From positions 1-64,000 of the forward strand of contig JAQMWT010000428.1 in assembly GCA_029834535.1 (NCBI GenBank): a stretch of DNA of 64,000 nucleotides. Reading direction: 5' to 3'. Of this stretch, positions 7,146 to 23,596 are shown in pieces; positions within the stretch are counted from its first letter, which is position 1; the number at the start of each line of letters is the position of its first letter. The position numbers and the translations under genes were made by a program. The notes under the pieces were generated by a model. The model was not told the DNA's origin. It made no database searches and worked only from the letters and a program-made list of their open reading frames with translations. This DNA is from Chrysophaeum taylorii (taxonomy: Eukaryota > Sar > Pelagophyceae > Pelagomonadales > Pelagomonadaceae).

Positions 7146-8720
7146 TCACGAAGTGAGGTAACGAGCACGAAGCCGGAGGAAGGAAGGAGCTTCCGTACTG
7201 CGGGTGAAAATGTCGCTAAGATTGTGAAGGCGGGGTATGTGCTTGAGATCAATGATGTGGTTGCGATGATATTCGGCGGTACTGTAAAAGCGAATGTCAA
7301 TATGGCGGGTGCGCCGTGTGAGACATTGGAGACGAACTTGGGTGACGGTGGTGCTATTATCAACATACATTGGGACCGTGTGACGAGGGAGATCAAAGTC
7401 ATCAAAAAGTTTGAGAAGCCAAGAGAGCTCAGCAGTAGCAGCGTAGAGAGCAAGCAATTCAGCTTCGAAAGAAGAACGAGCAAGTAAGTATTGCGAGCGG
7501 GAGCAGTAGGCTATCATAGAGCCGCCGAGAAGGAAGCAAAACCCAGTTGTAGAGTGGCGGTCATCAGGGTCGTCGGCCCAGCTGGAGTCGGAATAACCAC
7601 AGAGATGAAGGGTAGAATCGCGACCAAGAATAAGGGCAAGATCCTGAGTACCGTTGAGATAACGCAGAGTGTGGGATAAAACGTGCCAGTGGGGTTTACC
7701 AGGATTGTGGGAAAAACGCGCACACTGATTGACGGGCCAAGTGATATCAGGGCGAGTCATGATGGAGATGAAGAGGACACAGCCAACAATACGGCGAAAA
7801 GGGATGCGTGCCATGAAAATGTGATCTGGAGAACCAGGAGCCGGACAATCAGCCGCAGAAAGATGAAGACCTTTGGGAGCGGGAGTGAGTTCGGGTTTAC
7901 TGTTGATGAAGCGATGTTCGGTAAGGATTTCACGGATAGTATGGGATTGGTCAAGAGTGAGGGTGAGATCGAGTTCATTGACGTCAGTGAAAGCGCGGAA
8001 ACGGAGGAAAAAGGCTTGGTAATGGCCAATGCAATGAGGAGGGTGCGCCACAAGAAGATCATCAACGACCAAAACGAGACGGAGGACCACGGTAGAATTG
8101 AGCACGAGCTTGTAATGGCAAGTGTCACCAGATCCGCGGACGAAGCCACAATCATTGAGAAGGAAGCGTTCCAAATAAAGCCACCAATTGCGACAAGCTT
8201 GTTTGCAACCATACCAAGAGCGACGGAGCTTGTAAACGATTTTGGAACCATCGGTGGGTTGGCGAGGAGCATAGCCTTCGGGTGGCCAGACATAGATGTC
8301 TTCGTCAATGGGAGCTTGAATAAAAGCGGAGCTAACATCCAACTTGTGCAAATCCCAGTCATGAACAGCGACAAAGGTCAGAAAGAAACGGATCGTGACG
8401 ATGTTGGCAACCGGTGAGTAGGTGCCATGATAATCAATGCCGTGAACCTGGGTGTAACCGCGGACGACAAGGCGAGCCTTGTACGATTTGAAGCGGCCAG
8501 AGTCATACTTCTTGCGGAGGATCCACTTGAGGGTACAAATGTTGCCAGAAAAAGTCTGAGGGAGGCGAATCACATCCCAACAACCAAGTTGACCAAGAGA
8601 GCTGTATTCTTTAGCGATGGCTTGCAACCAGCCAGGACGCTCAGGATTGGTCGGAGCTAAAGCTTCACGTAAATGGGTGGAAGTGATAGTAGTTTCGTCA
8701 AGGTCTGAATACTGGGACAT
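7146..8720 (-). CDS. Copia-2 reverse transcriptase and RNase H
   Basis: A 524-codon open frame. The RT domain shows the Copia hallmarks WILRKKYDSGRFKSYKARLV, LHKLDVSSAFIQAPIDEDIY and the catalytic VVDDLL box (YVDD in most Copia). The RNase H part has GYSDSSWADDPDDRHSTTGF and SSFEAELLALYAATAE, the conserved D and E positions. It copies the element RNA into DNA. It follows the integrase region on the same strand, as in Copia pol polyproteins. Confidence 0.93.
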   Translation of the reverse strand: MSQYSDLDETTITSTHLREALAPTNPERPGWLQAIAKEYSSLGQLGCWDVIRLPQTFSGNICTLKWILRKKYDSGRFKSYKARLVVRGYTQVHGIDYHGTYSPVANIVTIRFFLTFVAVHDWDLHKLDVSSAFIQAPIDEDIYVWPPEGYAPRQPTDGSKIVYKLRRSWYGCKQACRNWWLYLERFLLNDCGFVRGSGDTCHYKLVLNSTVVLRLVLVVDDLLVAHPPHCIGHYQAFFLRFRAFTDVNELDLTLTLDQSHTIREILTEHRFINSKPELTPAPKGLHLSAADCPAPGSPDHIFMARIPFRRIVGCVLFISIMTRPDITWPVNQCARFSHNPGKPHWHVLSHTLRYLNGTQDLALILGRDSTLHLCGYSDSSWADDPDDRHSTTGFCFLLGGSMIAYCSRSQYLLARSSFEAELLALYAATAELSWLLKLFDDFDLPRHTVPMYVDNSTTVTQVRLQCLTRRTRHIDIRFYSTAEYHRNHIIDLKHIPRLHNLSDIFTRSTEAPSFLRLRARYLTS

Positions 8721-8869
8721 TTCTTCGGAAGCAGAGTAATAAACGTGTGCATGAGGATCAACAAGGGTGTTAGCTAAAGGGGAAGGAAGACATAATGAAC
8801 TAACAAACGAAAGCTAACAGAAGAGACATACAAAGAGTTACAGGGGGAAACAGAAGCGACAGAGGAAAC

Positions 8870-8957
8870 AGAATGGCCCGTATCGACATCAGAATGGCCC
8901 GTATCAACATCAGAATGGCCCGTATCAACATCAGAATGGCCCGTATCAACATTGTGA
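8870..8957. repeat. 21-bp tandem repeat in Copia-2
   Basis: About four copies of a 21-bp unit (ATCAGAATGGCCCGTATCAAC), nearly identical. On the minus strand the unit encodes repeated DTGHSDV in the linker between integrase and RT. Confidence 0.9.
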
Positions 8958-9191
8958 CAGGATGAAACATGGCCCGTAAAAAAGTTTGTTGGTTGTTGTA
9001 ACGCGCGTTGGTCGACTTTGCGCGGTCGGCCCCGTTTGGCACGACGTAATGGTGCACGTTTCGTATTGGCCGGTAACAGTGTAGGCAGTGACTCTGGGGT
9101 GATCAGTCCTGATAAGGCCGGCTCCGGAGCATCAAAAACAAACGATATTGGGGCTACGGCCGAAGATAGACGAGGGTCGTAATAAAACAAG

Positions 9192-11558
9192 TCAGGGAAA
9201 ACGAGAATCCACGAGAGACGGAGGAAGGGGTTGGGTGGACAGTGACTTACGCAGAGCGAAATTTTCGTCAGAAACAACATCAATCGAGGTGTGGATGACA
9301 GGACCTGTGGGGCGTTGAAGCAATATGCGATATCCAGGGCCAGCAGAGGGATACCCAATGAAGATGCCGGTTATAGCTTTGGTAGGCCATTTGTCGCCAG
9401 TAAGAATTGCAGCAGGACAGCCCCAAACACGAAGAAAATCGACACGCGGGAGTGTTTCATATAGCATTTCATATGGCGTCATATATCCAGGATTAGAGGC
9501 ATTTGGCATAGAGATGAAGTCAGCCGTTTCCATGGCCCAACGCCAAAAATCAGGTGGACGGTGCGCATGTACCAAAAGAGTGCGAGTAATATCCGCGGTT
9601 GCGCGATGAGAGCGTTCCACAACACCGGAAAAAGCGTGAGCCTGTGAAGTTTTGGACTGTGCTGCCGGAGCGCGCCGAAGCGCAATATTGTTGCCCAGAC
9701 AGAAGGTTTCGAATTGGCCCATAAGAGAGCGGCCACGATCGGTGTAGATGAGGGCAACGCGGTATCCGAATGGGCGAACCACGGTAGACAGAAAAAGTTC
9801 GAGTTGACGAGCGTTCGTAAGGGCATCGTGTCGTGGAGCAAAGTAACGCGTGCGGCGGCGCGTATGATCATCGACAAACGTGAGGATCGCGCGATCTTGA
9901 TATATGTAGGATGGGACGCCAGCAAACATGAGATCGGCGTGGATAATAAGGTAGGGCGCAACGGCACGTGGACGAGACAAAGGCTCGGAGGAAGGAGACG
10001 AAGTGGAAGCATGAGCTTTACGTTGGCCAACATGCGCAGCATGCATTTTACCGAGAGCACAAGCAGGACAAAAAGAAAGCGACGCGGAGCTCGGGAAAAA
10101 CGGTGCGCCAACAGCAAGAGAAGACAAACGCCGAAGATAGGGAGGACTATAATGACCAAGACGAGCATGCCAAAGATCGAAAGTTAGTTGAGTGCGTTGA
10201 GACACAGCGGGAAACGCACAAGGATCATGGACACGAGGGGAAGAAGAAAATGCCACAAAAGGTGAAACGTAGTCCGCGTAGGGCGCAGCGGTCGTATTGC
10301 CGATCCAACAGACGATCAAAAGAAGACCACAGCGACGAAGCAGGGGAATAACGTGATGCGTTTGGCGGTGACGTAAAATACGTTGTGGATAAGCAGGATC
10401 AACGGCCTGAATGGTGTGGCAATCGTAACCAACTTGTTCAAGGGAATGATCCGAAAGAATCCGTTTGTCACCAAGGCCAGGAGAGATGAGGGTATGCGGA
10501 AACGCGACATGTATACCATGAGGGGCGGAAAGAGTGGGTGCAGGAGAAGGAAGACCACGATTGTCAAGAGGACCAATTGAAGGGAACGTTAAGTGAGCAG
10601 TGCCAGAACCGGAAACAGAGCCAGTGCCGATAGCAGAAGTGATGGAATGCTGTTGAGTGTTGTCAAGGTCAGTGAAGCCAGCAGGAGAATTAAAAAGGCT
10701 GACGTTGGCGCCGGTATCATAGACAACGAGACGAAGGTTGGTGCTGTGAAGGTAGTCGCGCTCACGAGCGGTGAGCAGAGCGGTAAGGGCGTTGGTGGAG
10801 GAAAGGACTTGGTGAATGGAGGGGGAGATGGAAAGAAGGTGGAAATTGTAGGACGGGTAGGTGGGTGCAGAAAGGGATGGGTCAGGAAGGGTGACAGCGG
10901 TGGAAGGCGGGACAGAGGGTGTGGTGGAGGGTGGCAACGCAAGAAGCGGCGGAGAGGATTGAGATGGTGGCAAGGGTGGATTGGGGGTGAAAAGATGGTG
11001 TTGGTAGAAGGGTGGATGGGGCCTAGGTGGGTATTGGGGAGTGGACCGAGGTGGGTATTGGGGAGTGGACCGAGGTGGGTATTGGGAATGCAACCGACGT
11101 GGGTATTGGTGTTGATGCCGTGGGCGGGCGGTAGCTTGTGAGAGCAAATAGCGCTGGCGCTTATGACAATCTTTCTGGTGATGGCCAGGAATACCACAAA
11201 AGTGACAAAGATCAGTATGGCGTTGGCGCTTGCGATGAAAACCACGTGAAGATGAAGGTGGGTGACGGAATGATGATCGAAAAGAGGGGCGTGGGCTAGA
11301 ACGTTGTTGAGAGCGCAAAGCATTGAAGCGATGAAAGTACTTTTCAGAAGGATGGCGACCGTAAAAGTTGGAACGTTCACGATGACGGGGACTTTCACGG
11401 AACGTAGCATGGACGTGCACAGACTTGGTCTGAAGATAATCAAAAACTTTACTGTGGAGGCGATCAACGAAACCATCATATGTGCGCAATTTAGGATCAA
11501 GTGCAATGAGATCCTTAGACAAGAGCGAGTCGGGGATTTTCGTTTGAAGCAATTGCAA
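9192..11558 (-). CDS. Copia-2 Gag C-terminus, protease and integrase
   Basis: A 788-codon open frame. In order it shows a CCHC zinc knuckle CHFCGIPGHHQKDC in a basic stretch, a repeat-rich spacer (QYPPRSTP units), the protease site VVYDTGANVSLF, the integrase HHCC finger (HARLGHYSPPYL ... CPACALGK) and the integrase core with IHADLMFAGV, FVDDHTRRRTRYF and VVERSHRATADITRTLL. The C-terminal GCPAAILTGDKW ... GIFIGYPSAGPGYRI is the usual Copia integrase tail. These parts package, process and integrate the element. Confidence 0.93.
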   Translation of the reverse strand: MQLLQTKIPDSLLSKDLIALDPKLRTYDGFVDRLHSKVFDYLQTKSVHVHATFRESPRHRERSNFYGRHPSEKYFHRFNALRSQQRSSPRPSFRSSFRHPPSSSRGFHRKRQRHTDLCHFCGIPGHHQKDCHKRQRYLLSQATARPRHQHQYPRRLHSQYPPRSTPQYPPRSTPQYPPRPHPPFYQHHLFTPNPPLPPSQSSPPLLALPPSTTPSVPPSTAVTLPDPSLSAPTYPSYNFHLLSISPSIHQVLSSTNALTALLTARERDYLHSTNLRLVVYDTGANVSLFNSPAGFTDLDNTQQHSITSAIGTGSVSGSGTAHLTFPSIGPLDNRGLPSPAPTLSAPHGIHVAFPHTLISPGLGDKRILSDHSLEQVGYDCHTIQAVDPAYPQRILRHRQTHHVIPLLRRCGLLLIVCWIGNTTAAPYADYVSPFVAFSSSPRVHDPCAFPAVSQRTQLTFDLWHARLGHYSPPYLRRLSSLAVGAPFFPSSASLSFCPACALGKMHAAHVGQRKAHASTSSPSSEPLSRPRAVAPYLIIHADLMFAGVPSYIYQDRAILTFVDDHTRRRTRYFAPRHDALTNARQLELFLSTVVRPFGYRVALIYTDRGRSLMGQFETFCLGNNIALRRAPAAQSKTSQAHAFSGVVERSHRATADITRTLLVHAHRPPDFWRWAMETADFISMPNASNPGYMTPYEMLYETLPRVDFLRVWGCPAAILTGDKWPTKAITGIFIGYPSAGPGYRILLQRPTGPVIHTSIDVVSDENFALRKSLSTQPLPPSLVDSRFP

Positions 11559-11579
11559 TGCACTAGAGTCAGGGAAATC

Positions 11580-12131
11580 TTAATGATGCCGAGCAACTTG
11601 AACACCAGTGATGAACTTGTTAAGAAAAGACTCAAGTTCATCGATGTTGTTGCACACCAAGGAATGCAGTGAAGCAATTGCAGACTGAGCGACACGATCT
11701 CCATGACCCATGTAAACATCAGTAATGCGATTGTAAAGCCGCGTGAAGTTCATATCGCGGTTTTCACGGATATCCGCACGATCAGTATCATGCATTGGTA
11801 GTGCCATGAAGAGTGCACTGTACCAGCGTTGCTGCTTGAGACCAAATTCTTCTTCAGAGCAGCCAGAAGCGGAAATGCTAGTCCAAGTGTCAGTGGTCAA
11901 GATAATGCGATCACCGGTGGAAATGATCATGTTTTCCAGGCGCGGGGTCCATTGGTGAAAAAGATGTCGCTCACCACTGAAAGCATCGAGTTTTTGCGAA
12001 AGCTTGCTATCCTTAATTTCGATCGAGGACATGATAGACGACAACGAACCGAACACGTAGCAATGAACTGAAGCCGAGGAGGAGTCGCTGTTGTCCGTGA
12101 AGTCAAGCGGTCGTGCGACCGTGACGGACAC
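11580..12131 (-). CDS. Copia-2 Gag N-terminal part
   Basis: A 183-codon open frame starting just inside the 5' LTR and primer-binding site. It contains KLDAFSGERHLFHQWTPRLE and a helical stretch with YNRITDVYMGHGDRVAQSAI, consistent with the Copia UBN2/gag-polypeptide fold. Its neighbour downstream carries the zinc knuckle. Confidence 0.7.
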   Translation of the reverse strand: MSVTVARPLDFTDNSDSSSASVHCYVFGSLSSIMSSIEIKDSKLSQKLDAFSGERHLFHQWTPRLENMIISTGDRIILTTDTWTSISASGCSEEEFGLKQQRWYSALFMALPMHDTDRADIRENRDMNFTRLYNRITDVYMGHGDRVAQSAIASLHSLVCNNIDELESFLNKFITGVQVARHH

Positions 12132-12143
12132 CAGCTGCTACCA
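12131..12143 (-). promoter_or_regulatory. Copia-2 primer-binding site, tRNA-Met 3'-end type
   Basis: On the minus strand TGGTAGCAGCTGG follows the 5' LTR directly. It is close to the complement of a tRNA-Met 3' end (TGGTAGCAGAGC or similar), the common plant and protist priming mode. This differs from the internal priming of Copia-1. Confidence 0.75.
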
Positions 12144-12239
12144 TGTTACGAATGGTATGAGGCGTTAGACTAGCGATAAGAGAAAAACGTAAGGATACTG
12201 GATACGTGGTGCAGGGGTAAGTGTCATAGCTTCCTCACA
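12144..12239 (-). repeat. Copia-2 5' LTR
   Basis: A 96-bp LTR with TG...CA ends (TGTTACG...CCTCACA on the + strand), followed by the AAATC target duplication at 12,240-12,244. It is short for Copia. Confidence 0.95.
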
Positions 12240-12473
12240 AAATCAATTTCTTTTGTCTTTGTCCCCGGACCTATGCTGTGACATAATCGCTAATGCTATT
12301 CCGGCTGGAACATATCATATAATTTATGAACATTTGTGTCAGCTTGTCTATGACTTGCGTAAATTAACGCTATCACCATCGTTTGACCCTGATCATGCCC
12401 CTCTAACCAAAAACTATAGGTCAACCTTCTTCACAAATATATTCCCAACAGATACATCCTTAATATTACACCA
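12240..12473 (+). pseudogene. Copia-1 methyltransferase domain, C-terminal part (motif X-like)
   Basis: The stretch right of Copia-2 continues Copia-1. Near 12,276 it encodes CDIIANAIPAGTYHIIYEHL, which fits motif X of C5-cytosine methyltransferases (GNAVPPxLA...) with Ala for Gly. It lies where the C-terminus of the domain at 3,480-5,250 is expected, displaced by the MULE and Copia-2. Confidence 0.55.
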
Positions 12474-12485
12474 GAGTTCCATTAC

Positions 12486-12711
12486 TAACTAACTAACTTC
12501 AGACCTCTCCCGAGCATGGGAGCCAGGCCGGACCGACAGGAGCCAGTCCGGAATCACGGGCCTGTAGACGAGGAGCGCCGAAAGGTCGGTAGGCGGAGAT
12601 TGACCATCAAGCTTGTCGCCATGCGACGAGGAGACCGCGATGTGACTGACAACCAACTCGTCGATAGCCTTCCGTCTTCGCCCCCCGGCCATAACCCGTC
12701 CCACTGCGAAT
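12486..12711 (-). mobile_element. SINE-like element, copy 1 (5'-truncated)
   Basis: A 226-bp insert flanked by a perfect 12-bp duplication GAGTTCCATTAC (12,474-12,485 and 12,712-12,723). On the minus strand it ends with a stem-loop (GGACTGGC-TCCT-GTCGGTCC), then CATGCTCGGGAGAGGTCTGA and a TTAG-repeat tail. Variable target duplications and a simple-repeat 3' tail indicate target-primed reverse transcription. It lacks about 100 bp of 5' sequence present in the copies at 13,858 and 20,058. Confidence 0.85.
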
Positions 12712-13876
12712 GAGTTCCATTACAATGTTCTACATCTCCAATAAAAAACTCTCATGTTGTGATAATCTTGCTTCTAACCACGAACTTCCATCTTTTCATA
12801 TCGATTCAGTAGCTCATGTCTTCCTCTCTAACACCTCATCCGCAGATATATCATCTCCTACTAAAGAAAAACAAATTCCTCTTATAACGCCAAGACAGCT
12901 CCATGAGAAGCATGCGCCCTTCGATAAGAAAGTTCATGCTAGGGGCACCCTCGCATTTCGAGATGCGCAACAACGAGCTACAAATTTTCACAACATCCAC
13001 CATTCTAGTGATTCTCAAGCTATAAAATCTGTTCAGGTTATTGCCAGTCCTGGACACCACCCATCTGACGTACCCTACCGTAAGTTCAGTGTGGATTGTA
13101 CGATTCATAAAAAGCGCTTTCCTCATCCACATCACCTTACCAAGCAACCATCATTCGAAAAAAATTTTCAACCTGGTGAAGCCTGGGCATGTGACGGTGG
13201 TTACGTATCCGTTCTCTCAGAATGGAGATCCTTTCGACATATCATTGGTTTTAAGTGTCTCATTTCTAAATCTTTGTTAGTGTACTTTTGTCGTAGCACT
13301 AACTCCAGCGAATTTTGTAACGCCCATGAGTTTGTCCGCAATTTTTGCTCTACTTATGTTCATGCACAACTCAAACAAATCTATCGTGATTCCTTTAAAC
13401 CCTGTTTATCTCAGCATGTTACAACCCCCTTTCGTGTGGAACATGGTATTAACATGTCCGCGTTCCCCCCTTACTTACATGTCTTTAATCATGAAGTAGA
13501 AGCCGCTGTTGGTCACATAGCCACTGCCGCGTCTACACGACTCCGGCATATGCTTAATGTATCCTATAAAGGTCACCCCCTAACAGACCCGGCACTACAC
13601 TACCCGTGGGCTGTTATACATGCCATCCAATCGTATAATCTCCTCCCTAACGTTTCCCTCGAACGTATTTATAATAAAGTCCTAAGCCCCCAACAAGTTT
13701 TGTTAGACCAATGTAATGTTCCCCAACAGGACTACCTCAAACCTTTTGGCCCTGTTTGTTATCTGCATTTGGAACCTAACGAATTTCATAAATATGAGCC
13801 TCGATGTCGTCCTTACATCTACTTATGTGGTGCTAATGTTATGAACCCTTTAATAACTAACCAACTAACTAACTAA
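12710..13876 (+). CDS. Copia-1 integrase region
   Basis: A 388-codon open frame with an integrase-like region. A His/Cys-containing N-terminal part is followed by FQPGEAWACDGGYVSVLSEW, the first catalytic Asp context of rve integrases. The C-terminal part reads FGPVCYLHLEPNEFHKYEPR and YIYLCGAN, matching the Copia GCxxY...K..FR..C.FLGY module. The RT ORF at 14,130 begins with the same NEFHKY residues because the SINE insertion duplicated this target. Part of the fossil element. Confidence 0.75.
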   Translation: MSSITMFYISNKKLSCCDNLASNHELPSFHIDSVAHVFLSNTSSADISSPTKEKQIPLITPRQLHEKHAPFDKKVHARGTLAFRDAQQRATNFHNIHHSSDSQAIKSVQVIASPGHHPSDVPYRKFSVDCTIHKKRFPHPHHLTKQPSFEKNFQPGEAWACDGGYVSVLSEWRSFRHIIGFKCLISKSLLVYFCRSTNSSEFCNAHEFVRNFCSTYVHAQLKQIYRDSFKPCLSQHVTTPFRVEHGINMSAFPPYLHVFNHEVEAAVGHIATAASTRLRHMLNVSYKGHPLTDPALHYPWAVIHAIQSYNLLPNVSLERIYNKVLSPQQVLLDQCNVPQQDYLKPFGPVCYLHLEPNEFHKYEPRCRPYIYLCGANVMNPLITNQLTN

Positions 13877-14269
13877 CTTCAGACCTCTCCCGAGCATGGG
13901 AGCCAGGCCGGACCGACAGGAGCCAGTCCGGAATCACGGGCCTGTAGACGAGGAGTGCCGAAAGGTCGGTCGGCGGAGAGTGACCATCAAGCTTGTCGCC
14001 ATGCGACGAGGAGACCGCGATGTGACTGACAACCAACTCGTCGATAACCTTCCGTCTTCGCCCCCCGGCCATACCCCGTCCCACTGCGAACGTTCCGGCT
14101 GCCAACCGGCCCGCCCGAGAGGCGAATAGGTGCCAACCTACGCCGGGAGGGCGGATGCCCTCGCAAGGCTCAGGATTCATGAGGCACCTAACGAATTTCA
14201 TAAATATGAGCTTCGATGTCGTCCTTACATTTACTTGTGTGGTGCTAATGTTATAAACCCTTTAATAAC
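13774..14269. repeat. 84-bp target duplication around SINE copy 2
   Basis: Positions 13,774-13,857 and 14,186-14,269 are direct repeats of 84 bp with four mismatches. They start ACCTAACGAATTTCATAAAT and end CCCTTTAATAAC. They flank the SINE exactly. Confidence 0.88.
13858..14185 (-). mobile_element. SINE-like element, copy 2
   Basis: A 328-bp insert on the minus strand ending in the same stem-loop and TTAG tail as copy 1. Its 5' part begins GCCTCATGAATCCTGAGCC and includes the hairpin GAGGGC-ATCC-GCCCTC. I do not see convincing Pol III A and B boxes, so it is called SINE-like on structure only. It lies inside Copia-1. Confidence 0.85.
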
Positions 14270-17183
14270 ACCCCATGTTAATCATTTAGCCGATGTTGTC
14301 CTTAATCCTGAAAACGGCCAAGTCCGTGTTTCCTCTAAACTGACTTTTCCTCATCTTATTTCTAAATCTCCTCCTGATTATGAACAGCATCCACCTCCAG
14401 CACCTTCACCCGACATTCCCTTCTCTGTTCACAGCACCCCCAATGATGCGGCGCAGAGGGGGAATGCTATGCCTACCGACACTGACCACGAGAGGGGGAC
14501 TCCTTCTTTTCATCTCCATACTACCTCTCCCGTTCCCAAATGTGCTCCAGCTGCATCTGCACCCGCTACTTCCGCCACCACACCTACATCTGAAGTGTCC
14601 ACCAACACTTTGCCACTTTTACCATCTTATCGGTCTCTCTATTCCCAGGATGTCCTACGTCTCACCCGTGGTCCTCATCACCCTCAACCTCGTCGCAAAA
14701 CCAATCTCAAGGATGTTCTTACTCGTATTGCCTCGCCTACTGTTGCCGCTTATAAACAAGCCGGTGGTGCGCTTGCCGACTTCAAGTATGACCTCTCCAA
14801 GCAGTACATCACTTTCTGCGACCCCGCCCTCCACTCCCTTCATCTTGCTCATGGCATCCACTGGACGGTTATACCTCCAGAGGGGGAATTTACATCATCC
14901 CTTCATCACCATGTGCACCAAGCGCTTTCACAGTCCTCTTCAGTTATGTGTCATAGGAGCCATAGCCACCCATCGCCTGATGCTCCTCACGTTCACTTCT
15001 GCGACGACGTCAACCTTGCAGACTTTCACCTTCCTCAAGCTCTCGTTCATTTAATTTCTGAACATGCTCACGCCTTTCAAGTTCCTCCCGCTCAATATGT
15101 TTATGCTTTGTTCACGCCCCACTCCATTTTGGATCATAATGACGCTTCTTATGGTGCCTCCGAGCCTCACCTCTCCGCCATCGAAGACTATATCACCGTG
15201 CAATCGCATTACATTGAGACCCACCTTGGTGATGCTCCTCTACTAGTTGTTCAACTCGTCGAAGATCCCGATCACGCTCACACTCACGATAATGTCGCTT
15301 CTTACGCAATTACTCATCTTACGACGACTCATGACCCCAGCACGGTTGGTTCGGACGAATACAAGATTCAAGCCAAAGATATCAAAATTGATGAATATGA
15401 GTTGAACTGCCTCAAAGGTCTCTCAGACGCTGATCGCAAAGCTTATGTCGCCGCCATCTCCAAAGAGATTTTTGATATTGTTAAGTTTGGCTGCTTTAAA
15501 CTAGCGCTGCCAATGGTCAACTCAAAGCCCATTGACACCCGCCTCGTCCTACGTATAAAAACCAACGCTGCTGGTCAGTACATTAAGCATAAAGCACGCC
15601 TGGTCCTACGAGGCTTCTTAGCCTCTTTGGGCACCGATTTTTTCAACACATTCAGCCCTATGGCACAGCTTACTGGCATCCGTTGTGTTCTGGCGCTAGC
15701 AGCTCATCTGCGACTTCCCGTCTACCATGTCGACGTACCTAACGCTTTTGTTCAAGCTCCCATCGACTCTCATGTCTATGTCAAACTGCCACAAGGCATT
15801 TACCTTCTCGATCCCGAAGATACTAAATATCAAGGCCGTCGTCTCCCAAAGCTACTTAAATCTCTCTATGGATTACGTCAGAGCCCCGCCCTTTGGAATC
15901 AAACCATAAACGGCTTCTTTGATTCATTAGGCTATACACGATTTCGAACAGACACCTGCATTTACGCTAAAGTCCAAGCTGACGCTACATTTCTAATTTG
16001 CACGCTCTCAGTAGACGACGTCGTCATTACTTGTACTTCGGAAACTCTACGTCGTGAATTCCAGCAAGCCCTGAAAAAGGAATACTCAGTCGACACCTTC
16101 GAGGAAGTCCATACTCTCTTAGGCATGCGCATAACGCGTACAACTGATGGTTCTATATCACTGGACTGTCAGGCTAAACTTGATGCATTGTTCGAAGAGT
16201 ACCCCATTTTAATGCAGTTACGTCCCACCTCCACACCGATGTCACCATCAACCACGTATAAAACTGGAGAGCCATCTTCTGATATGGACAAGTTCATCCT
16301 TCATACCTTCTCCACTCTACTCGGCAAGCTCACGTTTGTCCAATTGGCCTGTCGCCCTGATCTATCACAAAGTCTTAGTCGTTGCTCTCGAGGAATGCAT
16401 AATCCAGCATTTCTACATGTTCAAGTACTAACAGGAACGCTCCGCTACTTGCGCAAGCCCGAAAATCGTAATCTTCGCCTCTGGTACTACTCTGGCTCTT
16501 CCGCTCTAATGGACCATCTTCGACTTCTTATCGGTAATCGTACTGACATGGCCACCATGTTGGATTACACTAAAGAACAAGTTAATTCAGGTAATTTTGA
16601 TCCATTGGTCGCGTTCGTTGATGCCGACAATGCACCCTCTTATGAACAAGACCGCAAGTCTACAACCGGTTACGCTATCTTTTTGTTTGGTTCTCTCATC
16701 ACTTGGAAGTCTAAGTTGCAGCCTATTACGGCTACTTCTACGCATGAGAGTGAACTTATCGCCCTTAATATGTGTGCCGATGATGTGGTCTGGTTACGCA
16801 AATTGTTAACGGAAATGGCATTCGCTATAAATCCTCACTTCTATCTCCGCCAACCTTCAGGGAAAGACTTGCTACTAGATTATGATGCTCACGATCCCCT
16901 CCCATCGGACATGTCGTTCATACGTAACAGTCCTATACTTGGAGACTCGGCCTCTGCTATTCATCTATCCAACAATCCCGACAGTGCGACTAAGGCCAAA
17001 GCTATTAGCACACGCTGGTTCCGTATTCGCGACTACGTACAGTTAAAACGTATACGTCTACATCATGTTTCCGGTACCCATAATATCGCCGATGGATTTA
17101 CTAAACCCTTTGGAGCTCCGCTCTTCAGCAGATTTCGCACGTTACTCGGCTTACAACAAACCATAGCTCAACAAGATGGTTAA
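14130..17183 (+). CDS. Copia-1 reverse transcriptase and RNase H
   Basis: A 1,017-codon frame; codons before about 14,190 are SINE sequence. After a Ser/Pro/His-rich spacer the RT domain shows RLVLRIKTNAAGQYIKHKAR, YHVDVPNAFVQAPIDSHVYV, KLLKSLYGLRQSPALWNQTI and LSVDDVVIT (DD box). RNase H shows FVDADNAPSYEQDRKSTTGY and THESELIALNMCADDVVW, with the final HHVSGTHNIADGFTKP. This is the best-preserved part of Copia-1. It would copy the element RNA if active. Confidence 0.93.
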   Translation: MPTYAGRADALARLRIHEAPNEFHKYELRCRPYIYLCGANVINPLITPHVNHLADVVLNPENGQVRVSSKLTFPHLISKSPPDYEQHPPPAPSPDIPFSVHSTPNDAAQRGNAMPTDTDHERGTPSFHLHTTSPVPKCAPAASAPATSATTPTSEVSTNTLPLLPSYRSLYSQDVLRLTRGPHHPQPRRKTNLKDVLTRIASPTVAAYKQAGGALADFKYDLSKQYITFCDPALHSLHLAHGIHWTVIPPEGEFTSSLHHHVHQALSQSSSVMCHRSHSHPSPDAPHVHFCDDVNLADFHLPQALVHLISEHAHAFQVPPAQYVYALFTPHSILDHNDASYGASEPHLSAIEDYITVQSHYIETHLGDAPLLVVQLVEDPDHAHTHDNVASYAITHLTTTHDPSTVGSDEYKIQAKDIKIDEYELNCLKGLSDADRKAYVAAISKEIFDIVKFGCFKLALPMVNSKPIDTRLVLRIKTNAAGQYIKHKARLVLRGFLASLGTDFFNTFSPMAQLTGIRCVLALAAHLRLPVYHVDVPNAFVQAPIDSHVYVKLPQGIYLLDPEDTKYQGRRLPKLLKSLYGLRQSPALWNQTINGFFDSLGYTRFRTDTCIYAKVQADATFLICTLSVDDVVITCTSETLRREFQQALKKEYSVDTFEEVHTLLGMRITRTTDGSISLDCQAKLDALFEEYPILMQLRPTSTPMSPSTTYKTGEPSSDMDKFILHTFSTLLGKLTFVQLACRPDLSQSLSRCSRGMHNPAFLHVQVLTGTLRYLRKPENRNLRLWYYSGSSALMDHLRLLIGNRTDMATMLDYTKEQVNSGNFDPLVAFVDADNAPSYEQDRKSTTGYAIFLFGSLITWKSKLQPITATSTHESELIALNMCADDVVWLRKLLTEMAFAINPHFYLRQPSGKDLLLDYDAHDPLPSDMSFIRNSPILGDSASAIHLSNNPDSATKAKAISTRWFRIRDYVQLKRIRLHHVSGTHNIADGFTKPFGAPLFSRFRTLLGLQQTIAQQDG

Positions 17184-17440
17184 TCCTTACCATTTATTAT
17201 GTCCGAAATGACTTTAAACTAACCCTCCTATATAAAGGAATACTGGCTCGCTAAAATGTGAAATGCAATGAAAGATGTGATGTGGAGATCCCTTTTAAGA
17301 TGAATCCCACTAAAAACAAAGATGCTGCGAGCCGGCGCCATTCTGTACTGAACCGTGGCCGTGGTGGTGTGTCGTCACTATCCCCACCTTTTAATGCCCT
17401 AAATCCAAGCGTTGCTCCGACTAGTTCTCCTAATAACTAA

Positions 17441-18970
17441 CTAAACTAACTAACTTCGGACCTCTCCCGGGCATGGGAGCCAGGCTGGGCCGGTAGTAGC
17501 CGGTCCAGGATCACAGAGCAAAAAATCACACAGTTGGGGTAGAAGCTTGGGAAGAAATTGCATGGATGGCGGACAGCCACTGCGCGCGGTCTTGTGCGAG
17601 GTCGTGCCACGAGTTGAAGGGGATGTCGCATTTCCGGAGTGCCTTGGCGAGCGACCTCCCGTACGTCATCTGCGGAGCCCCCGGTGGGCGCTTGGAGCGG
17701 ACCCAAGACGAGAGCATCTTGCGAGGGAGTCGGGAGAAGGGCATGCGGGCGACGTGACCGGCCCAGCGGAGCTGGCGGCGCGTGACGTAGACGTCGATGG
17801 ACTCGAGGCCGAGGCGCCGCCGCAGGATCTCCGTTGAGATGTGGTGGGACCAGGTGTGTTTCCGGGTCACACGACACATGACGCGGGCGCACTGCGCGTG
17901 GAAACACCGCAGCCGGCGGAACAGGACCTCGGTGAGGCACCACGATTCCGCACCGTGAAGGAGGATGGCCAGGACGAGCGAGACATAGACGAGGCGCTTG
18001 GCGCGAGCAGAGACGGACTTCGAGGCGAAGATGCAGTCCCGCAAGGCACCGAAGGCCTGAGACGCCTTCTTGATCCGCGCGTCGACGTCTGAGTCGTCGC
18101 GGCAGTCGCGCGAGAGGACCGAGCCGAGGTACTTAAACTGGTCGACGACCGGTATGAAGCGGCCGCGCCCGAGCTCGATGTCCGAGAGGTTCGTGTCGTC
18201 GAACGACTTTGGGTCGCCGTACAGGTGTGCCGGGCGAGCGACGAACAGCATCTCCGTTTTGGACGCCGCTTTCGTGTGTCGGTTGCCGCAATGCACCTCC
18301 ATGCCCCAGGCGTCGCAGTGTTCGATGAGGCGCGGTGTCTCGCTGGCGGCGATGTGGCGGTCCCAGAAGAGAAAGGCAACGTCGTCGGCGTACGCCGATT
18401 CATCGAAGGGAAACTCGTCGCCGCGAGCGGACCAACTCCGGTTCGTCATCTGAAAGTCTTTCCGCGTACGGTAGACACATGGGGTGCGGCCATGGCGTCG
18501 TCGAAACGACGTCGTCAGTGCCGCCATGAACAGCACGAACAGGACGGGGCCCAGGACGTCGCCCTGCTTGACGCCGATGATCGAGTCAACCGAGGCGACG
18601 ACACCGCTGACCGAGAAGTGGACCTGGATTCGGTGGAGGCCCTTGATGACTGCGACGAGCTTCGGCGGGACGCCGAACTTCAGGAGCACCTCCCAGAGAA
18701 GCTCTCGCGGGACGCGGTCGAACGCCTTAACGAAATCGATGAACAGTACCCACGAGTCCTGACCGTGCTCACGCCGCTTCTTCAGCGCTAGCTTGAGCGA
18801 GAAGGTGGCGTCGGACGTACCGCGCTCGGGTCGAAAGCCACATTGAGACTCGTGATCGAGGGCCTCGCAGATGACGTTGAGTCGTGCACGGACGATGTTC
18901 GAAACGATCTTCTGCGCGACCTCGAGCATCATGATCCCGCGGTAGTTGCCCGGCAGGGAGAGGTCAAACC
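17441..18970 (-). mobile_element. LINE copy A, 5'-truncated non-LTR retrotransposon
   Basis: A non-LTR element on the minus strand. It contains a long RT ORF, then a short 3' UTR with the CCTGGCTCCCATGCCCGGGA block and a TTAG-rich tail at 17,441-17,456. The apurinic-type endonuclease and any ORF1 are absent, so the copy is 5'-truncated near 18,970. No clear target duplication is visible. It interrupts ORF3 of Copia-1. Confidence 0.9.
17526..18932 (-). CDS. LINE reverse transcriptase (partial)
   Basis: A 468-codon open frame. RT motifs in order are NYRGI just upstream of the first Met, GFRPERGTSDATFSL, VLFIDFVKAFDRVPRELLWE, GVKQGDVLGPVLFVLFM and the catalytic ESAYADDVAFLF. A C-terminal part follows with RRLRCFHAQCARVM and RRQLRWAGHVARMPFSRLPR, which is common at the end of Jockey/RTE-like LINE proteins. 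It primes reverse transcription at nicked target DNA. The frame continues upstream of the first Met, showing the start is lost by truncation. The exact LINE clade is not assigned. Confidence 0.9.
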   Translation of the reverse strand: MMLEVAQKIVSNIVRARLNVICEALDHESQCGFRPERGTSDATFSLKLALKKRREHGQDSWVLFIDFVKAFDRVPRELLWEVLLKFGVPPKLVAVIKGLHRIQVHFSVSGVVASVDSIIGVKQGDVLGPVLFVLFMAALTTSFRRRHGRTPCVYRTRKDFQMTNRSWSARGDEFPFDESAYADDVAFLFWDRHIAASETPRLIEHCDAWGMEVHCGNRHTKAASKTEMLFVARPAHLYGDPKSFDDTNLSDIELGRGRFIPVVDQFKYLGSVLSRDCRDDSDVDARIKKASQAFGALRDCIFASKSVSARAKRLVYVSLVLAILLHGAESWCLTEVLFRRLRCFHAQCARVMCRVTRKHTWSHHISTEILRRRLGLESIDVYVTRRQLRWAGHVARMPFSRLPRKMLSSWVRSKRPPGAPQMTYGRSLAKALRKCDIPFNSWHDLAQDRAQWLSAIHAISSQASTPTV

Positions 18971-22006: not shown

Positions 22007-23136
22007 ACTAACTAACTAAATAACTTCAGACCTCTCCCGAGCATGGGAGCCAGGCTGGACCGGCAGGAGCCGGTCCAGGATCACAGAGGAAAATCACATA
22101 GTTGGGGTAGAGGCGAGGGACGAGAACTTGTGGATGGCGGACCGCCACTGCGCGCGGTCTTCTGCGAGGTCGTGCCACGAGTTGAAGGGGATGTCGCATT
22201 TCCGGAGCGGCTTGGCGAGCGTCCTCCTGTACGTCATCTGCGGAGCCCCCGGTGGGCGCTTGGAGCGGACCAAAGGCGAGAGCATCTTGCGAGGGAGTCG
22301 GGAGAAGGGCATGCGGGCGACGTGACCGGCCCAGCGGAGCTGGCGGCGCGTGACGTAGACGTCGATAGACTCGAGGCCGAGGCGCCGCAGCAGGGTCTCC
22401 GTTGAGATGTGTGCAGCCAGGTGTGCTTCCAGGTCACGCGACACATGACGCCGGCGCACAGCGCGTGGAAGCACCGCAGCCGGCGGAACAGGACCTCGGT
22501 GAGGCACCACGACACCGCGCCGTGAAGGAGGATGGCCAGGACGAGCGAGACGTAGACGAGGCGCTTGGCGCGAGCAGAGACGGGCGTCGAGGCGAAGGTG
22601 CAGCCCCGAAAGGCAAGAGAGAGGGCCTGAGACGCCTTCTTGATCTGCGCGTCGACGTCTGAGTCGTCGCGACAGTCGCGCGAGACGAGCGAGCCGAGCT
22701 ACTTGAACTGGTCGGCGACCGGTGTCCGAGAGGCCCGTGTCGTCGACCGACTTTGGGTCGCCGTACAGGTACGCCGGGCGAGCGACGAACAGCATCTCCG
22801 TTTTTGATGCCGCCTTCGTGTGTCGCTTGCCGCAATGCACCTCCATGCCCCAGGCGCCGCAGTGTTCGATGAGGCGCGGTGTCTCGCTGGCGGCGATGTG
22901 GCGGTCCCAGAAGGGAAAGGCGACGTCGTCGGCGTACGCCGATTCATCGAAGGGAAACTCGTCGCCGCGAGCGGACGAACTCCGGTTCGTCATCTGCAAG
23001 TCTTTCCGCGTACGGTAGACACACGGGGCGCGGCCATGGCGTCGTCGAAACGACGTCGTCAGTGCCGCCATGAACAGCACGAACAGGACGGGGCCGAGGA
23101 CGTCGCCCTGCTCGCCACCGATGATCGAGTCGAACG
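22007..23136 (-). mobile_element. LINE copy B, 5'-truncated
   Basis: A second copy of the LINE at 17,441, on the same strand, shorter at its 5' end. It has a 13-bp target duplication AGTTAG(T/G)TAGATA at 21,994-22,006 and 23,137-23,149 with one mismatch. Its 3' UTR keeps a perfect stem-loop GGACCGGC-TCCT-GCCGGTCC. The RT frame (22,094-23,136) has internal frame disruption relative to copy A in the middle (around 22,430-22,720), so it is not functional. Confidence 0.9.
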
Positions 23137-23320
23137 AGTTAGGTAGATATGAAAGCAAAAGGCGTAGAAGCTGGGTTTATTCTTGAGACAGCGCGACGGC
23201 CACGAGAGTCACTTCGAGCGCGTTCTTGCGCTGAAGAAAAAAACAAAGATAAGAAACCTAGCCGGGATTCGAGTCACTTCGAGCGCGTTCTAAAACACTG
23301 TAGCAAAAATCAAAATTAAG
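23137..23320. repeat. Rearranged spacer with tRNA relic and 21-bp direct repeats
   Basis: GAGTCACTTCGAGCGCGTTCT occurs at 23,206-23,226 and 23,271-23,291. Between them, 23,254-23,272 repeats the last 19 nt of the neighbouring tRNA-Arg gene (acceptor and T-arm, AAACCTAGCCGGGATTCGA). This suggests a duplication that started inside a tRNA gene. T-runs on the minus strand around 23,300-23,315 could end Pol III transcription of the tRNA at 23,321. Confidence 0.75.
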
Positions 23321-23417
23321 AAACCTAGCCGGGATTCGAACCCGGAATCTCAAGATCCGTAGTCTTGCGCGTTCGACAGCCACTGCTCTGGCAGTGTATC
23401 CATTGCGCTACCAGGTC
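23321..23417 (-). tRNA. trnR-ACG: tRNA-Arg(ACG) with a 24-nt D-loop insert, copy 1
   Basis: Minus-strand gene of 97 nt. Acceptor is GACCTGG/CTAGGTT with discriminator T. The anticodon arm CAAGA-CTACGGA-TCTTG gives anticodon ACG (Arg CGN), and the T-arm is CCGGG-TTCGAAT-CCCGG. Box B (GGTTCGAATCC) and box A (TAGCGCAATGG) are present. Compared with tRNA-Arg(ACG) of other eukaryotes (GCGCAATGGATAACGCG), 24 extra bases lie between GGATA and ACGCG in the D-loop. They form a perfect 6-bp stem CACTGC-CAGA-GCAGTG followed by GCTGTCGA. Removing them leaves a standard 73-nt tRNA. Position 37/38 of the anticodon loop, the usual eukaryotic intron site, has no insert. Alternatives are a non-functional relative or a tRNA with an enlarged D-arm. 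Confidence 0.88.
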
Positions 23418-23499
23418 ACGATACCGCTTGAATCGAGCACCTCTCCAAGACCGAATTTTCAGCAGGACCCAGACACGTTCAACGGAGATGTAGAAAGTC

Positions 23500-23596
23500 A
23501 AACCTGGCCGGGATTCGAACCCGGAATCTCAAGATCCGTAGTCTTGCGCGTTCGACGGTCACGTTAACGTTCGTGTATCCATTGCGCTACCAGGTC
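23500..23596 (-). tRNA. trnR-ACG: tRNA-Arg(ACG) with a 24-nt D-loop insert, copy 2
   Basis: Same strand, 82 bp upstream of copy 1, also 97 nt. Acceptor GACCTGG/CCAGGTT; anticodon arm and T-arm identical to copy 1. The D-loop insert is again 24 nt at the same place. Its sequence differs (base CACG...CGTG stem with an 8-nt loop, then ACCGTCGA) while the end GTCGA is shared. Exon parts are nearly identical in both copies while the insert loops differ, the pattern expected of an intron. No clear T4 terminator follows this copy at once, so joint transcription with copy 1 is possible. Confidence 0.88.

Follow-up and report, generated by a model that had tools for sequence, protein, structure and literature searches.

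Two tandem tRNA-Arg(ACG) genes on the minus strand of the window, by which is meant the whole 64,000-nucleotide stretch of DNA analysed here, each contain 24 additional nucleotides within the D-loop. This raises the question of whether such inserts are introns that leave the transcript, parts of an enlarged mature tRNA or the marks of pseudogenes. By far the best reading of the sequences is that they are ectopic introns of the 20/21 region, present in every Arg(ACG) and Ile(AAT) gene found in the genome assembly, which would be excised from the precursors; the probability of this reading is put at roughly 0.8.

The tandem genes and their genomic setting

The first-pass annotation placed these genes in a nuclear genome, which is supported by genes of the window for dynein heavy chains and retrotransposons and by the location of organelle genes on separate contigs. 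The contig is nuclear and belongs to a eukaryotic, photosynthetic organism: the protein domains recognised in the window are dynein heavy-chain, in two adjacent ORFs, RVT_1, RVT_2 and DUF1995, while contigs C697 and C696 are read as plastid and mitochondrial, respectively, from their tRNA clusters and photosystem or respiratory genes as assessed by eye. The description of the genome as 'stramenopile-like' is plausible, if not proven, as the best structure matches to psbD are 8iwh and 6j3y, which we take to be diatom photosystems. Three reverse transcriptase ORFs (one RVT_1 and two RVT_2) lie at 7146-18932, and a partial ORF that resembles the RVT_1 ORF by eye occupies 22094-23158, beside the tRNA pair.

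The tandem arrangement, with 24 nt inserted into the D-loop of each gene between GGATA and ACGCG, was confirmed from the sequence; the genes are 97 nt apiece and offset by 179 bp (Table 1). The annotation had described near-identical tRNA parts around divergent inserts, and the two copies do indeed differ at one of 73 exon positions and at 11 of 24 insert positions. The insert stems beginning CAC and ending GTG, of 6 bp in copy 1 and 4 bp in copy 2, and the terminal GTCGA are likewise present as claimed, and removal of the insert leaves joined exons of 73 nt that ARAGORN identifies as a tRNA-Arg(ACG), in keeping with the proposal that a conserved tRNA is thereby restored.

Table 1. Features of the two interrupted tRNA-Arg(ACG) genes in the window
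Feature	Position	Strand	Basis
tRNA-Arg(ACG) copy 1, 97 nt	23321..23417	-	Joined exons give tRNA-Arg(ACG) with ARAGORN
Copy 1 5' exon, 21 nt (20 if spliced at 20a/21); A-box region intact to G18G19	23397..23417	-	
Copy 1 D-loop insert, 24 nt, candidate intron	23373..23396	-	Sequence, comparison
Copy 1 insert hairpin CACTGC-CAGA-GCAGTG (helix h')	23381..23396	-	
Copy 1 insert tail GCTGTCGA	23373..23380	-	
Copy 1 predicted pairing of CTG with U16 G18 G19	23377-23379 with 23400-23402	-	Prediction; not the lowest-energy fold
Copy 1 predicted 5' bulge ATA	23397-23399	-	Prediction
Copy 1 3' exon: anticodon arm with ACG, T arm, acceptor	23321..23372	-	
tRNA-Arg(ACG) copy 2, 97 nt	23500..23596	-	Sequence, ARAGORN on joined exons
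Copy 2 5' exon	23576..23596	-	Joined-exon search
Copy 2 D-loop insert, 24 nt, candidate intron	23552..23575	-	
Copy 2 insert hairpin CACG-AACGTTAA-CGTG (helix h')	23560..23575	-	
Copy 2 insert tail ACCGTCGA	23552..23559	-	
Copy 2 predicted pairing of CCG with U16 G18 G19	23556-23558 with 23579-23581	-	Prediction
Copy 2 predicted 5' bulge ATA	23576-23578	-	Prediction
Copy 2 3' exon	23500..23551	-	Rfam, joined-exon search
Spacer from copy 2 (upstream) to copy 1, 82 bp, without a TTTT run	23418..23499	-	

The first TTTT is found 5 nt past the end of copy 1. An adjacent pair of Ile genes on C334 (L129) is organised similarly: in both tandem pairs the upstream gene lacks a TTTT before the next gene begins, and the downstream gene is followed by one at a distance of 5 or 14 nt. 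The presence of TTTT only after the downstream gene in each pair suggests two-gene precursor transcripts. In the region downstream of copy 1, at 23206-23339, a 21-nt unit occurs twice alongside the tRNA 3' end in truncated form, the T-arm piece of which lies at 23254-23272; these are apparently debris of local duplication.

The same interruption in other tRNA genes

The genome assembly searched comprises 70.8 Mb in 697 contigs. A DNA search revealed a third Arg(ACG) gene (C373:222059-222155, hereafter Arg3, the window copies being Arg1 and Arg2), which has 24 extra nucleotides in the D-loop but a largely different insert. Furthermore, three Ile(AAT) genes carry inserts of 20, 21 and 23 nt at the same D-loop site; the last of these was traced from a weak Rfam tRNA match and the other two emerged from pattern searches. 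The Ile pattern occurs at 19 places (control 8), which consist of the three interrupted genes, one Met tRNA, five places on organelle contigs and ten that are not tRNAs as judged by ARAGORN and a scan for arm pairing. In all six genes (three Arg and three Ile) the insert falls between 20a and 22, its boundary being ambiguous by one nucleotide (20a/21 or 21/22). The anticodon loops, CTACGGA or CTAATAA, are unbroken in every case, hence none of these interruptions occupies the 37/38 location, and the 5' half always precedes the 3' half, hence the genes are not circularly permuted. That the insert site recurs in Arg3 and in the Ile genes implies that the pattern seen in the tandem pair is more than chance.

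No excess was found of the AGCTCAG...GAGCR pattern, designed to detect the same insert in other tRNAs, which matches at 66 places against 247 in the control; three of these are the Ile genes, two others are not tRNAs by eye and 61 were seen as matches only. A pattern based on the tail motif matches at 47 places (control 23), of which five are known genes, and none of the ten inspected by eye among the 42 others is a tRNA. On contigs beyond C696 and C697, 24 tRNA types (23 anticodons, with initiator and other Met separate) lack a D-loop insert, in a sample that leans to intact genes, leaves about 20 isoacceptors outside by general expectation and omits three genes, two bacterial-looking and one of doubtful identity (L163). 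As Ala AGC, Pro AGG, Thr AGT, Ser AGA and Leu AAG are among the types without an insert, A34 alone is not predictive of one.

Several other candidates were set aside. A query with human tRNAs gave 17 matches, and 11 places were inspected. Alongside two intact initiator genes, four initiator-Met places match only from nt 24-28 and thus have apparent D-loop breaks; these are read as 3' fragments and not introns, because the sequence upstream is unrelated. In each of them (L153-L156, on C441, C578, C459 and C374) the 3' part of initiator tRNA-Met is joined to such unrelated sequence, which in L156 resembles, by eye, a retroelement reading in the window, and reverse transcription is a possible origin of the fragments. 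A T-loop pattern, GGTTCGANTCC, proved unspecific (310 places against 64 in the control); among the first 100 matches, which were those listed, six T-loop-like motifs are spaced exactly 582 bp apart at C166:142858-145778 as a tandem repeat, and inspection of one unit of it (L102) found no tRNA. Four tRNA genes (L028-L031, on C658 and C667) are Val(GAC) according to ARAGORN, an anticodon that is unusual in eukaryotic nuclear genomes. A tRNA-Ser(GCT) with encoded CCA (L052, on C20) and a tRNA-Ala(GGC) (L116, on C427) look bacterial, a hint that the assembly may include contigs that are contaminants or were transferred.

The search for uninterrupted copies

Neither pattern nor DNA-similarity searches of the assembly detected an uninterrupted tRNA-Arg(ACG) gene, the existence of which had been a question of the first-pass annotation. 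The same holds for Ile(AAT) across the 70.8 Mb, in which an assembly gap could hide an intact copy of either. A query of joined Arg and Ile exons returned 14 matches, 12 of which come from the six interrupted genes, each matched in two pieces; the other two are the related Arg(CCG) gene, at 85% identity, and a T-arm fragment of 19 nt next to copy 1. The matching pieces stop at the insert, with two also extending into the adjacent half of the concatenated query. The 3' pattern for Arg(ACG) is present at seven places (control 4), comprising the three interrupted genes and four that are not tRNAs by ARAGORN, and none of the three places matching the 5' pattern (control 19) is a tRNA. The interpretation of the inserts as introns, raised in the earlier annotation, is thus supported both by the lack of any detected intact Arg(ACG) copy and by the existence of a second isoacceptor with a like insert.

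With A34 edited to inosine, ACG and AAU tRNAs would serve CGY and AUY codons. Among the 1845 codons of the dynein ORF, CGC is used 30 times, CGT 4 times, ATC 61 times and ATT 11 times. It is thus highly improbable that the interrupted genes are pseudogenes while intact genes supply these tRNAs: the dependent codons are in use, the exons differ at just 0-2 positions and both isoacceptors are interrupted in all copies found, with no intact synonymous gene detected in the assembly. In favour of the pseudogene explanation, a review (PMC4090602, in part) holds that where eukaryotic tRNA genes have insertions in the D- or T-arm, mostly a single gene among many synonymous ones is affected, and that such genes are presumed to be pseudogenes.

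Variation in the inserts

The Arg copies differ from one another at 1-2 of 73 exon positions and at 11, 16 and 12 of 24 insert positions, while the Ile copies have identical exons (74 nt) around inserts of unequal length, with gapped identities of 15-16 over 21-23 positions. All six inserts share a common plan, in which a hairpin of 4-6 bp starts from the first nucleotide of the insert and is followed by a tail. The stems are CACTGC/GCAGTG, CACG/CGTG and TTCCTT/AAGGAA in the Arg genes and GCTGC/GCAGC, GGTGC/GCATC and AGTGC/GCACT in the Ile genes. Single hairpins are weak evidence, since 1.6-6.8% of shuffled inserts equal them (p 0.016-0.068); their weight comes from the recurrence of the hairpin and from changes that preserve the pairing. 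The 7-nt tails are CTGTCGA, CCGTCGA and CCAACGA in the Arg genes, with one nucleotide between stem and tail in Arg1 and Arg2, and CTGTCAA, CCGTCAA and CTGTCAA in the Ile genes. The likeness of CYGTCGA in Arg1 and Arg2 to CYGTCAA in the Ile genes, from which the Arg3 tail differs, may hint at common descent beyond what pairing would need.

Paired changes and hairpins in all six genes would also be expected if the insert were kept, so that both tRNAs had an enlarged D-arm with a hairpin projecting from 20a/20b, the variable portion of the D-loop. The insert site does coincide with a part of the loop that is naturally variable in length, and the unspliced form already has A14, G18, G19 and an A ahead of position 22. 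Retention sits less easily with inserts whose lengths are 20, 21, 23 and 24 nt and whose sequence has mostly been replaced within near-identical exons. Furthermore, removal gives a normal D-arm resembling that of the Arg(CCG) gene, which is uninterrupted in this genome, and a hairpin of 24 nt located at the elbow would be an unusual feature for contacts with the ribosome and synthetase.

Predicted geometry of the splice sites

The first three letters of the tail (C-Y-R) can pair with U-G-G of the D-loop in each of the six genes, giving 18 of 18 possible pairs, as against 5-9 when the register is slid along the tail and 1-9 when it is slid along the exon. Even the Arg3 tail, odd in sequence, provides a CCA that pairs fully with UGG. 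Between this helix and the hairpin the predicted 5' bulge is exactly 3 nt (ATA, ACA or TTA), whereas the 3' side is longer, at 4-5 nt from the D-stem, and C-R-A precedes the 3' exon. The hairpin and the U-G-G/C-Y-R helix occur jointly in 0.05-0.22% of shuffles per gene (0.0005-0.0022), for a geometry that was defined after the inserts had been seen; as the three copies of each tRNA are related, they do not represent independent events.

A bulge-helix-bulge motif is defined in PMC4090602, in the text drawn on here, as a 4-bp helix with two 3-nt bulges. The annotation had reported that no convincing structure of this kind could be folded. One can in fact be drawn for all six genes, each of which allows the 3-nt 5' bulge and three inner pairs, but it has to be called relaxed, because a fourth helix pair exists in only two of the six; folding energy does not single the structure out. 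In constrained folding, the U-G-G/C-Y-R helix is part of the lowest-energy fold for Arg2, Arg3 and Ile2 only, neighbouring registers being favoured in Arg1 and the two remaining Ile genes. When only the tail is shuffled, 51-94% of trials reach an energy as good or better. When the entire insert is shuffled, the proportion is 1.8% for Arg1 and 12.2%, 7.4%, 18.6%, 15.8% and 21% for the other genes; energy therefore supports the structure in Arg1 only, given values of 7-21% elsewhere. This failure of folding energy to favour the splice-site geometry fits retention of the hairpin, whereas pairing of the tail in a single register fits the geometry itself, and taken with the variation described above retention appears unlikely.

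If the inserts are D-loop introns, Pol III would transcribe the entire interrupted gene, since the insert lies beyond the end of the A-box. The hairpin h' of the intron may stack, within the precursor, on the helix between D-loop U-G-G and tail C-Y-R beside the D-stem, and the stacked helices would expose three nucleotides as the 5' bulge (N-N-A) and three as the 3' element (C-R-A). By analogy with bulge-helix-bulge sites, the tRNA splicing endonuclease is predicted to cut at NN|A and CR|A, the position after the second bulge nucleotide being suggested by the 37/38 site. Ligation after both cuts would leave an ordinary GGAUAACGC or GGUUAGAGC D-arm, and the spliced ACG and AAU tRNAs, edited to inosine at A34, could then read CGY and AUY codons.

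Two endonuclease catalytic domains (PF01974) are encoded, with scores of 76.7 and 73.6 bits (cut-off 27), and ordinary 37/38 introns occur in Ser, Glu, Asp and Cys genes of the same genome; three Asp genes have identical exons and 37/38 introns of 13, 20 and 25 nt. That the genome has such catalytic domains as well as ordinary tRNA introns, with no alternative enzyme suggested by the sequence, makes it very unlikely that true introns are removed here by machinery other than the tRNA splicing endonuclease, such as a hairpin-guided nuclease and a ligase. Such a route would accord with the relaxed form of the bulge-helix-bulge, and the splicing of the non-canonical introns of the Guillardia nucleomorph is described in part of PMC4090602 as not understood. 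A fuller scenario, in which one D-loop intron spread between the unrelated Arg and Ile families of a nuclear genome, both of them A34/inosine tRNAs, became fixed in all copies and is excised by a eukaryotic endonuclease able to use archaeal-style splice sites outside the anticodon loop, is tentative and on the doubtful side.

Detection by gene finders

With default settings, ARAGORN reports no tRNA in the window and detects none of the six interrupted genes when they are given artificial flanks. When introns are allowed, copy 1 is named Arg(ACG), an intron of 24 nt being placed at its position 32, and copy 2 is misnamed Gly; with joined exons, the correct tRNA, Arg(ACG) or Ile(AAT), is returned for all four distinct joined sequences. 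Rfam scores for the 3' parts are 29.9 and 28.8 bits, against a gathering score of 29; 63 of 1258 candidates were scored in the Rfam tRNA search of the genome, which hence gives no full tRNA list. In tRNAscan-SE 2.0, non-canonical introns are sought through the archaeal model, and a tRNA gene of a eukaryote is taken to have one intron at most, according to the portion of PMC8450103 used here. Together with the misses and misnaming by ARAGORN, this design means that such introns may go unnoticed in other algae, and gaps in annotated algal tRNA sets could be re-checked by a simple search.

Comparison with known systems

In published descriptions the tRNA body positions the eukaryotic splicing endonuclease, and cleavage is confined to the anticodon loop (PMC4090602, PMC3978253, both in part). 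Were excision from the D-loop needed for the only known source of two essential tRNAs, these genes would offer a direct test of this rule, and the shared hairpin and tail allow exact splice-site predictions. Introns of this kind are already known; the setting and the distribution over two families appear to be new, and the open-access titles and abstracts searched, from a body of literature outside which most subscription journals fall, described no D-loop tRNA introns for a nuclear genome of stramenopile type.

The inserts resemble the 37/38 introns in Asp, Ser, Cys and Glu genes of the same genome in being short and fast-changing between conserved exons, with the same presumed endonuclease, and differ from them in occupying the D-loop instead of the anticodon loop. 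They share the tRNA region, and a similar bulge-helix-bulge logic, with the archaeal 20/21 introns covered in part of PMC4090602. By contrast with the archaeal 4-bp helix and two 3-nt bulges, only three pairs are general here, the fourth being formed in two of the six genes.

Nucleomorphs provide a second parallel, as those of Guillardia theta and the chlorarachniophytes have non-canonical tRNA introns that include D-arm cases; in G. theta the non-canonical introns are 3-24 nt long, and their excision was confirmed by RT-PCR sequencing (PMC4090602, in part). The comparison with Guillardia is by description and not by sequence. Nucleomorphs are, however, relict nuclei, whereas the genome studied here is a 70.8-Mb assembly with dynein genes and retrotransposons.

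A further likeness is to the red alga Cyanidioschyzon merolae, the nuclear tRNA genes of which are also broken in the D-arm with a bulge-helix-bulge-type structure; in the accounts drawn upon (PMC9602550 and PMC3978253, in part), they include a permuted Arg(CCT) gene with an intron at 14/15 and a permuted Leu(TAA) gene with its junction at 20/21. Several positions and permuted genes are thus involved in C. merolae, by contrast with the single position here, which is shared by two isoacceptors and interrupted in all copies found. The present genome also differs in being larger, in having its other introns so far seen at 37/38 and in the relaxed form of its motif.
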